The notes under the pieces: generated by a model
What the model saw: only the letters and a program-made list of their open reading frames with translations
Databases searched by the model: none
What the model was told of the DNA's origin: nothing
Source: Sulfurovum sp.
Lineage (GTDB): Bacteria > Campylobacterota > Campylobacteria > Campylobacterales > Sulfurovaceae
Length of the DNA: 39,106 nt
Assembly (NCBI GenBank): GCA_012329065.1
Contig: JAAXPZ010000082.1
Location: forward strand, 1-39,106
Direction: 5' to 3'
Program-made: the position numbers and the translations under genes
In this document: positions 2,620 to 39,106 of the stretch, piece after piece
Numbering within the stretch: the first letter of the stretch is position 1
Layout: each line of letters opens with the position of its first letter

Positions 2620-3036
2620 TTGGTCTATGTTACTCTTTTTTTCTCAGCTTTGGTCTCTGCTACTCTATTCCCGATGGGTAGCGAAGCACTGCTGGTATAC
2701 GATATAGAACAAGGACACCCTCTAGTATGGCTGGTAGCCATAGCGACATTTGGCAACACACTTGGAGCTGTGATTAACTACTGGCTAGGGCTTGGAGGCG
2801 AAGTGTTACTGGAGGAGAAAGGATTGATCAACCCTATCAAATTCGCAAAATTCAACCGCTGGTTTGCCAAGTATGGTGGCTGGAGTCTACTTTTGAGCTG
2901 GATGCCATTTATAGGTGACCTCTTTACTTTTGCAGCTGGGATTGCCAAGTATAGCTTTTGGAAATTTTTATTACTTGTGGCTATAGCAAAGTTAGGTAGA
3001 TACCTTGTGTTGGCTTGGGCGTGGATTACGATTTAA
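2620..3036 (+). CDS. YqaA-family (DedA-related) inner-membrane protein
   Basis: This 138-aa membrane protein starts at TTG 2620, preceded by AAAGG seven bases upstream. It has about four hydrophobic segments and the family pattern GSEALL near the start, FGNTLGAVINYWLG at about 45-58, and a central amphipathic part (FNRWFAKYGGWSLLLSWMP). YqaA proteins belong to the SNARE-associated/VTT superfamily, whose DedA members are thought to move lipids across the membrane; the function of YqaA itself is unknown. The gene is probably co-transcribed with the EamA gene. Its stop codon TAA (3034-3036) coincides with the TTAA-containing outer end of the inverted-repeat element that follows, so that insertion may have set the present C-terminus. 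Confidence 0.85.
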   Translation: MVYVTLFFSALVSATLFPMGSEALLVYDIEQGHPLVWLVAIATFGNTLGAVINYWLGLGGEVLLEEKGLINPIKFAKFNRWFAKYGGWSLLLSWMPFIGDLFTFAAGIAKYSFWKFLLLVAIAKLGRYLVLAWAWITI

Positions 3037-3203
3037 CCCAAAATATGCAATAGAATTGCCAAAATTAGCGATAGAGCTTGTACTGTGGGTGTTTGCAAAG
3101 AATTTAAGGTTAACCCTTAGGTTAATCGATGATTATTTGTAAATGCCCACAGTGCAATGACTTTTGCTAGTTTGGTGATTTCTATTGCATAATTTGGGTT
3201 TAA
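3034..3203. repeat. MITE-like element with ~66-bp imperfect terminal inverted repeats
   Basis: The left arm (3034-3100) reads TTAACCCAAAATATGCAATA and onward. The reverse complement of the right arm (3137-3203) reads TTAAACCCAAATTATGCAAT and onward. The two arms align over their whole length with roughly four in five bases identical, down to the ACTGTGGG core near their inner ends. The short centre (about 3101-3136) contains TTAAGGTTAACCC and its partial complement and has no coding capacity. Related copies lie at 38198-38289 (internally deleted) and 36988-37025 (one arm only). The element fills most of the 242 bp between the YqaA gene and the phosphatase gene. Confidence 0.8.
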
Positions 3204-3278: not shown

Positions 3279-3971
3279 ATGTCTGCAAAACCAATAACAA
3301 CCATACTTTTCGATCTAGATGGGACACTCATAGACAGTGCTCCTGACCTGTGTGGATCGATCAATCATATGCTTGCCAAGCTGGACAGGGAGAGTTTCGA
3401 TGATGATATGATACATCACTGGGTAGGGAATGGTGCCCAAATGCTTGTCTCCAGAGCATTAGCTGGCAAGAGAGATATCAAATGCGAAATAGATAGCAGT
3501 CTCCTAGATAAGGCGATGGATATATTTTTATCACACTACAAAGAAAATCTATGTGTAGACACATACTTATACGACGGAGTAAAGGACACTTTAAAAAAAT
3601 TAAAGGGTCTGGAGTACCAAATAGTGATAGTCACTAACAAGCCAGTAGAGTTTGTGCAGCCTATTATCTGTAGACTAGGCATAGATGAATACATCGATTA
3701 CTTCATAGGTGGAAATTCTCTGTCAAGCAAAAAGCCAGACCCTGCACCCCTGCTGCATATTTGTGAGCATTTTGATATAGAGATCGATAAGTGTGTCATG
3801 ATAGGTGATTCTAAAAATGACATACTAGCGGCAAGAGCTTGTGACATGGATAGCATAGCAGTAAGCTACGGATATAACTATGGTGAAGATATATCTATCT
3901 ATGAGCCTGATTTCATAGTGGATAGCCTTGCAGATATTATGCCCATAATCACAGGCAAAACAAATGCATAA
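3279..3971 (+). CDS. gph: Phosphoglycolate phosphatase-like HAD hydrolase
   Basis: The 230-aa protein has all four HAD motifs. Motif I is DLDGT (D12 nucleophile, D14 acid/base), followed by LIDSAPDL as in Gph. Motif II is IVTNKP at about 116-121, motif III is the lysine in SSKKPDPAPL, and motif IV is GDSKND. The cap domain lies between residues 17 and 85. Family members remove phosphate from 2-phosphoglycolate formed by oxidative damage or Rubisco side reactions, in the cytoplasm. Close relatives act on other small phosphates, so the exact substrate is inferred. AGGAG precedes the ATG. The end overlaps the next gene by eight bases, so the two are probably translated together. Confidence 0.88.
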   Translation: MSAKPITTILFDLDGTLIDSAPDLCGSINHMLAKLDRESFDDDMIHHWVGNGAQMLVSRALAGKRDIKCEIDSSLLDKAMDIFLSHYKENLCVDTYLYDGVKDTLKKLKGLEYQIVIVTNKPVEFVQPIICRLGIDEYIDYFIGGNSLSSKKPDPAPLLHICEHFDIEIDKCVMIGDSKNDILAARACDMDSIAVSYGYNYGEDISIYEPDFIVDSLADIMPIITGKTNA

Positions 3972-36939: not shown

Positions 36940-36987
36940 AAAAGAGAGTCCTTTGTTGAAAATACAATTCATAAAATTGGATATCAT

Positions 36988-37025
36988 TATCGCTAATTTT
37001 GGCAATCCTATTGCATATTTTGTGA
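36988..37025 (-). repeat. Solo arm of the MITE-like element
   Basis: The reverse complement of this stretch (ATCACAAAATATGCAATAGG and onward) matches the left arm of the element at 3034-3203 over about 37 bases with few mismatches. Only the outer half of one arm is present. It lies between the OmpA-type start and the divergent AEC gene, in the likely promoter region of both. Confidence 0.65.
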
Positions 37026-37080
37026 TTATACCCTAATGAGTATTTATTTGATATAATCTCAAATAAAATAAAGGGCAGTC

Positions 37081-38197: not shown

Positions 38198-38289
38198 TTC
38201 AACCCAAACCATACAATAGAATTTCCAAAATCCCACGGTGCAATGACTTTTGCTAGTTTGGTGATTTCTTTTACATATTTTGGGTTCAA
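38198..38289. repeat. Internally deleted copy of the MITE-like element
   Basis: The sequence begins TTCAACCCAAACCATACAAT and ends TACATATTTTGGGTTCAAA, so both outer ends of the element are kept. The right arm is nearly complete (about 60 bases) and nearly identical to the one at 3143-3203 from GTGCAATGAC to GGTGATTTCT. The left arm is cut to about 36 bases. The centre is missing, leaving a 92-bp hairpin 14 bp behind the CPxCG gene. Confidence 0.72.
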
Positions 38290-38630: not shown

Positions 38631-38713
38631 TGTATTTAAAATCTCTTTTACTTCATCTTATGGTTCCCATCAATTCATTATACCAAAGCAAATCAAAAAT
38701 GTCAAAAAAACCA

Positions 38714-38770
38714 GGGGTCTGGTGATTTGTGATTTGTTCTGAAAGAATGAATCATGAATCACCTGACTCC
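38714..38770. repeat. Repeat A hairpin, first copy
   Basis: GGGTCTGGTGATTTGTGATT and onward pairs, with regular TG/CA mismatches, with GAATGAATCATGAATCACCT and its GACTCCC end. The arms are about 26 bases with a five-base loop (TGAAA). The same unit recurs at 38879-38946 and partly at 38947-38992. Confidence 0.75.
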
Positions 38771-38846
38771 CGATGCAATGTAAAAGAATGTCAAAAAATA
38801 TGACACCCTCGAAATTACTACCGCAGGAAGTCCCTACGGCATCAAA

Positions 38847-38868
38847 GGGCGAACACATGGGTTCGCCC
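38847..38868. repeat. Perfect 8-bp-stem hairpin GGGCGAAC/GTTCGCCC
   Basis: GGGCGAAC, a six-base loop ACATGG, then GTTCGCCC, followed by CCTAC. GC-rich compared with all surrounding DNA. It sits between the two full copies of repeat A. Confidence 0.75.
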
Positions 38869-39106
38869 CTACTAGGAAACCAGGGGTCTGGTGATTTGTG
38901 ATTTGTTCTGAAAGAATGAATCATGAATCACCTGACTCCCGATGCATGATTTGTTCTGAAAGAATGAATCATGAATCACCTGACTCCCGATGAAATGTAA
39001 AAAAATATGGCACCCTCGAAATTACTACCGCAGGAAGTCCCTACGGCATACCGTCATTATAGCACTTTGGGCTTTATGTTGCTATGGGTCTATGACATAA
39101 CAGTGC

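Follow-up and report, generated by a model that had tools for sequence, protein, structure and literature searches.

What is the long inverted repeat between a VTT-domain (YqaA-like) gene and a phosphoglycolate phosphatase gene in Sulfurovum sp., and how did it come to lie there? The repeat is found on contig JAAXPZ010000082.1 of assembly GCA_012329065.1; the window analysed here is the whole stretch of 39,106 nucleotides from this contig. A first-pass annotation of the window had described an inverted repeat of 170 bp at 3034-3203, resembling a miniature inverted-repeat transposable element (MITE), with relatives at 36988-37025 and 38198-38289. Judged from sequence comparison, the best explanation is that the repeat is a non-autonomous, non-coding MITE which would be mobilised in trans by IS1380-family transposases; we put the probability of this at about 0.8.

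The inverted repeat is real: its + strand folds at -87.8 kcal/mol, compared to a mean of -34.5 for shuffled sequences (z = -14.6). Alignment of copies places the boundaries of the element proper at CCCAAA and TTTGGG, 162 bp in all (Table 1); the TTTAA found on either side is a target duplication. A TTAA overlapping the YqaA stop codon had been taken as the end of the element. The overlap holds, as the left TTTAA contains the TAA; however, the motif is part of a 5-bp duplication which varies between copies. The element has inverted ends and contains no open reading frame (ORF) of at least 80 amino acids, i.e. it is a short unit with terminal inverted repeats (TIRs) and, as proposed, without coding capacity. 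No Rfam family matches the window at the gathering score, and a promoter search inside the element gives no excess over shuffled sequences.

Perfect 5-bp direct duplications flank 29 of 61 candidate copies, against 8.6 expected from a swapped-flank control; since some of the 61 rows are spurious pairings, this signal is diluted. Flank identity is clearly above the control solely at k = 5. One complete genome, G157, carries at least 38 near-full copies. Perfect 5-bp duplications are present at 17 of 38, and many of them are not TTTAA (e.g. CAAAG, AAAAC, CTCTG). The empty-site comparison covered one G157 insertion, at 2102366 in TCTAA; the site is empty in five congeners, with flanks that align without gaps over the joint in G260 and with small gaps in the other four (G206, G249, G261 and G262). 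A single copy (1/38) lies inside an ORF in G157, although the searched loci are 88% coding. As read from these comparisons, the element inserts into intergenic DNA, mostly A+T-rich, and duplicates 5 bp of it; it is a non-coding MITE with terminal repeats, a fixed 5-bp duplication, dispersed multiple copies and empty sites. A palindrome of the REP or IS200/IS605 type, moved by an HUH enzyme, would share the palindromic, intergenic and multi-copy character of the element, but the element's long terminal inverted repeats, and target duplications fixed at 5 bp, make this hardly credible. To our knowledge, HUH elements produce no target duplication.

Full-length copies are not confined to the genus of the window genome but extend to further genera and families, and copy length is near-constant (162-166 bp). 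Copy counts are lower bounds, most of them coming from capped searches of incomplete assemblies. The TIR pattern matches 47 of 120 genomes from the element's own family; a reversed control pattern matches almost none. A covariance model trained on 23 copies finds matches in the order Campylobacterales, where 21 of 150 genomes, belonging to 12 of 62 genera, are hit. In a phylum-wide draw, the model matches 8 of 200 genomes, all from the same order, under strict filters which lose weak matches. Local duplication or chance, which the annotation had named as the alternative source of the copies, is ruled out by this dispersal across family and order; copies are found in many genomes and have their ends in common.

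The window element is 0.816 identical to an element from another family (G208). Within the genus, the best identity is 0.89, and several copies reach 0.75-0.78. The cross-family identity exceeds that of these several same-genus copies, which suggests that the element family has spread horizontally. Plasmid and phage records gave no match to the element; viral contigs gave one exact TIR match and nothing more, and loci around gph from named genomes contain no copies. The phosphoglycolate phosphatase gene downstream of the window element has its nearest named relatives mostly in Campylobacterales and Sulfurovum assemblies, so the host very probably belongs there. No published description of the family was found in a literature search, a result that says little about novelty. 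The forms at L207-L214 (genera g10) are longer, about 247 and 328 bp, and bear additional side hairpins at similar positions, with increments of about 82 bp; they look as if another small palindromic repeat lay inside the element. At L246 (G157:568376-568707), one copy is apparently inserted within another copy of a different end type.

Both relatives in the window are also real. They had been read as an internally deleted copy and a solo arm, beside the complete copy at 3034-3203. The complete and internally deleted states stand, the deleted copy being 82 bp long between TTCAA duplications; the solo arm is instead a mini-element of 34 bp, flanked by ATTAT duplications. Other contigs of the window genome carry two more minis of this length and sequence type (G000:C70:17103-17136 and G000:C33:24946-24979); one has a perfect duplication (ATAAA) and the other matches at 4 of 5 positions. 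The minis have a common junction but different duplications, which suggests that they transposed as minis. A 35-bp mini-element with ATAAA duplications is found in another genus (L178, G034:287000-288300); its sequence is unlike that of the 34-bp minis.

The annotation had proposed looking for an autonomous element that shares these ends; ends of this kind are found on IS1380-family transposons of the same order. Transposases were found by PF13701 profile search, then by protein search. G065 contains three intact copies of 1661 bp, with a 450-aa transposase, ends CCCAAATCCGTAAATAG and perfect 5-bp duplications (TTAAA, ATCAT and TTTAT). G130 contains an element with a 448-aa transposase and an imperfect duplication; its ends, CCCAAATAACGAAATAGA, are like the G157 element type. 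Further insertion sequence (IS) copies in G462 (CCTGGATTATGCAATAGG), G191 (CCCAGATTTTGCAATAGAGTTC) and G026 (CCCAAATTTTGCAATC) have window-type ends and are all damaged or incomplete as read. The proteins of G065, G130 and G462 score over the cut-off of NF033539 (IS1380 family transposase). Across seven IS1380 copies from several genera, at least 15 of 20 end positions are shared with the element in most cases, and the flanks are A+T-rich. Because intact IS1380-family transposons of the same order have the element's ends and 5-bp duplications, an IS1380-family transposase is the likely mover. ISEcp1 is a member of this family. Its insertions show 5-bp repeats at A+T-rich sites (PMC7527135).

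Several observations weigh against this assignment. The ends of the intact IS copies are nearer to the G157 type; window-type ends stem from damaged copies. At the sensitivity used, the window genome has no detectable relative of the IS1380 transposase, copy-rich G157 has no PF13701 match, and most carrier genomes checked have no IS1380-type transposase, so that the copies there look orphaned. Past the terminal repeat, there is no significant similarity between IS and element, with a collinear hint at the start-codon hairpin. The orphaned copies and the little similarity beyond the ends would favour a transposase outside IS1380, the likeness to IS1380 ends being due to chance or convergence. 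This is rather improbable, given the end matches and A+T-rich flanks of most of the seven IS1380 copies and a duplication length which agrees with that of IS1380 (ISEcp1, PMC7527135).

The distance from end to hairpin is 70-74 bases in four ISs, measured to the start-codon hairpin, and 71 in the element. The element may have arisen from the left end of an IS1380 transposon through fold-back duplication, though support is weak; the spacing fits, but the similarity is no more than suggestive. Other candidates for the autonomous partner were rejected. When TIR pairs 1-3 kb apart were considered, a 2.6-kb candidate in G068 held ordinary genes, and the G157 pairs included none that was convincing among the matches listed. 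A transposase near a TIR in G081 has different ends of its own, and that TIR appears to be a remnant.

The arms had also been described as folding into one long RNA hairpin. This applies to RNA of the + strand, which forms a near-perfect hairpin (-84.7, with 10 G-U pairs); the complement reaches -55.2 with no G-U pairs, and complementarity between the arms as DNA is only about 74%. Among 23 diverse copies, 93.2% of cells pair, and changes are seen on both sides at 32 of 61 pairs; covariation is 0.400, compared to 0.186 for shuffled sequences and at most 0.095 for slid partners. The canonical strand gives the better fold in 40 of 42 copies. In the 23 copies, G-U cells outnumber A-C cells by 195 to 21 (about 9:1), and each per-genome consensus has 9-10 G-U pairs. 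Private (single-copy) mutations in three genomes are close to neutral: 36 G-U, 25 A-C and 58 transversion mismatches. In G157 alone the private ratio is 20 G-U to 9 A-C (p = 0.06), which leaves room for a modest bias.

The strand bias in wobble pairs could be mutational (e.g. through C-to-T changes where a strand is exposed) or go back to a single ancestor, rather than being selected; the copies are of common ancestry, and some G-U pairs fall at the same columns in many copies. This is unlikely, as G-U is spread over 37 different pairs, the private counts are too weak to yield 9:1, and many compensatory double changes are found. In addition, a divergent lineage with 0.56 identity to the window element, L219, keeps the asymmetry (-101.2 vs -65.8). 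Most simply read, copies decay almost freely once inserted, while the source copies giving rise to new ones keep the hairpin. The pattern suggests that selection acts on RNA shape in source copies, where it would serve a function. On the other side of the balance, relatedness among the copies means that the counts of pairs lack independence; and their orientation to genes is random, so only some of them would be read into canonical RNA.

Selection could instead act on the hairpin at each site, as a regulatory or mRNA 3'-end element serving the host, with mobility secondary. Many copies are close to gene ends, a stop codon lies within the target of two copies (the window copy and one in G157), and RNA covariation is strong. 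However, random orientation speaks against the hairpin acting in host mRNAs of a single orientation, private mutations are near-neutral in type, and half-decayed copies are common; a host-serving role is thus quite improbable.

As the sequences show, the transposition unit is CCC..GGG, about 162 bp long; it would be moved in trans by IS1380-family transposases. Read-through transcription would produce canonical-strand RNA that folds into a hairpin of some 70 pairs, and multiplication would continue only for source elements which retain this hairpin. A plausible reason is that G-U wobble would permit a strong RNA hairpin while the DNA palindrome stays imperfect and hence replicable. The hairpin may be cut by RNase III, or may stabilise mRNA ends and so make insertions tolerable. 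That the canonical RNA hairpin is needed for multiplication, and that the 34-bp derivatives, with ends almost butt-joined, are themselves mobile, is a tentative and somewhat doubtful proposal. In the stem, TGCTTG faces CAATGA (alignments A1 and A2) in a 2x2 internal loop with G-G and C-U mismatches. This loop is kept in nearly all lineages, as is the four-base central loop; the conserved loops would suit protein recognition.

The element can be compared with several known systems. As in the IS1380 family (PF13701, NF033539), its terminal repeat begins CCC/CC and its 5-bp duplication is A+T-rich (PMC7527135); unlike IS1380 members, it is a near-complete palindrome of 162 bp without a transposase, and its interior has no significant IS match. 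ERIC/IRU/RU-1 of enterobacteria is also a short intergenic MITE-like repeat with a hairpin RNA, but is 127 bp long with TA termini (PMC2229807) and is unrelated in sequence as far as seen. Used as a yardstick, E. coli ERIC copies show a weaker wobble asymmetry in the same sense (3 G-U vs 0-1); the property may be general. YPAL/RU-2 of Yersinia (about 168 bp) resembles the element in its size, long hairpin, intergenic position and mobility. In contrast to the element, with its 5-bp duplication and terminal repeats, YPAL/RU-2 has duplications of 3-26 bp and no terminal inverted repeat, and is not A+T-rich (PMC2229807). NEMIS/Correia of Neisseria has terminal repeats and a hairpin proposed as an RNase III substrate, but has TA termini and forms of 107 and 155 bp (PMC2229807). 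The TA termini or TA duplication typical of ERIC, NEMIS and RUP are replaced in the element by CCC ends and a varied 5-bp duplication. TIMEs, which are Tn3-derived, are likewise non-autonomous, with 5-6 bp duplications and a predicted RNA fold (PMC4133298); they are 262 bp long with 38-bp Tn3-type repeats and are usually single copy, whereas the element has CCC ends, 162 bp and dozens of copies.

Table 1. Coordinates of the element, its relatives and the adjacent genes in the window.
Feature	Position	Strand	Remarks
Complete 162-bp element	3037..3198	+ (canonical hairpin-RNA strand)	aligned copies; model 171 bits on +, 88.5 on -
Left 5-bp target duplication TTTAA	3032..3036		3034-3036 is the stop codon TAA of the upstream gene
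Right 5-bp target duplication TTTAA	3199..3203
Left terminal inverted repeat CCCAAAATATGCAATAGAAT	3037..3056	+	also in IS1380-family ends
Right terminal inverted repeat (complement CCCAAATTATGCAATAGAAA)	3179..3198	-
Central (apical) hairpin GGTTAACC-CTTA-GGTTAATC	3108..3127	+	covaries between lineages
82-bp internally deleted copy	38203..38284	+	model match 39.9 bits, E 5.7e-7; ends
Left target duplication TTCAA of 82-bp copy	38198..38202
Right target duplication TTCAA of 82-bp copy	38285..38289
34-bp mini-element, degenerate ends (canonical CACAAAATATGCAATAGGATTGCCAAAATTAGCG)	36991..37024	-	same type as two other minis
Target duplication ATTAT flanking mini-element	36986..36990
Target duplication ATTAT flanking mini-element, other side	37025..37029
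VTT-domain (YqaA-like) gene	2620..3036	+	PF09335, E 1.1e-13; stop codon within target duplication
Phosphoglycolate phosphatase gene, downstream context	3279..3971	+	NF009695 over cut-off

Elsewhere in the window, the stretch 98-1692 holds a fragment of an integron-integrase gene (TIGR02249, E 4.5e-65) which continues into an insertion sequence of the IS481 family; the latter has a transposase at 657-1619 and inverted repeats of 31 nt at 645-675 and 1662-1692. Close to the contig end, at 38708-39049, lie direct repeats of 70 and 56 bp, nearly identical and unrelated to the element.

That ERIC, NEMIS and other structure-forming MITEs of bacteria act as RNA is a long-standing suspicion; we know of little evolutionary proof for this. 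The element family offers a simple readout, in which wobble pairs are set against A-C mismatches and lineage consensus against private mutations. By comparison of consensus with private mutations, selection on the copies that spread can be told apart from the decay of those already inserted, and the approach is usable for other families. The family also links a structure-forming MITE to IS1380, the bacterial family which serves as outgroup to piggyBac (PMC10813416). The candidate 34-bp mobile derivatives would define a near-minimal substrate for IS1380 transposase. If the RNA hairpin is indeed needed, the element would be a DNA-transposon derivative which propagates via its own RNA fold, a structure of about 162 nt kept order-wide despite the decay of its copies.
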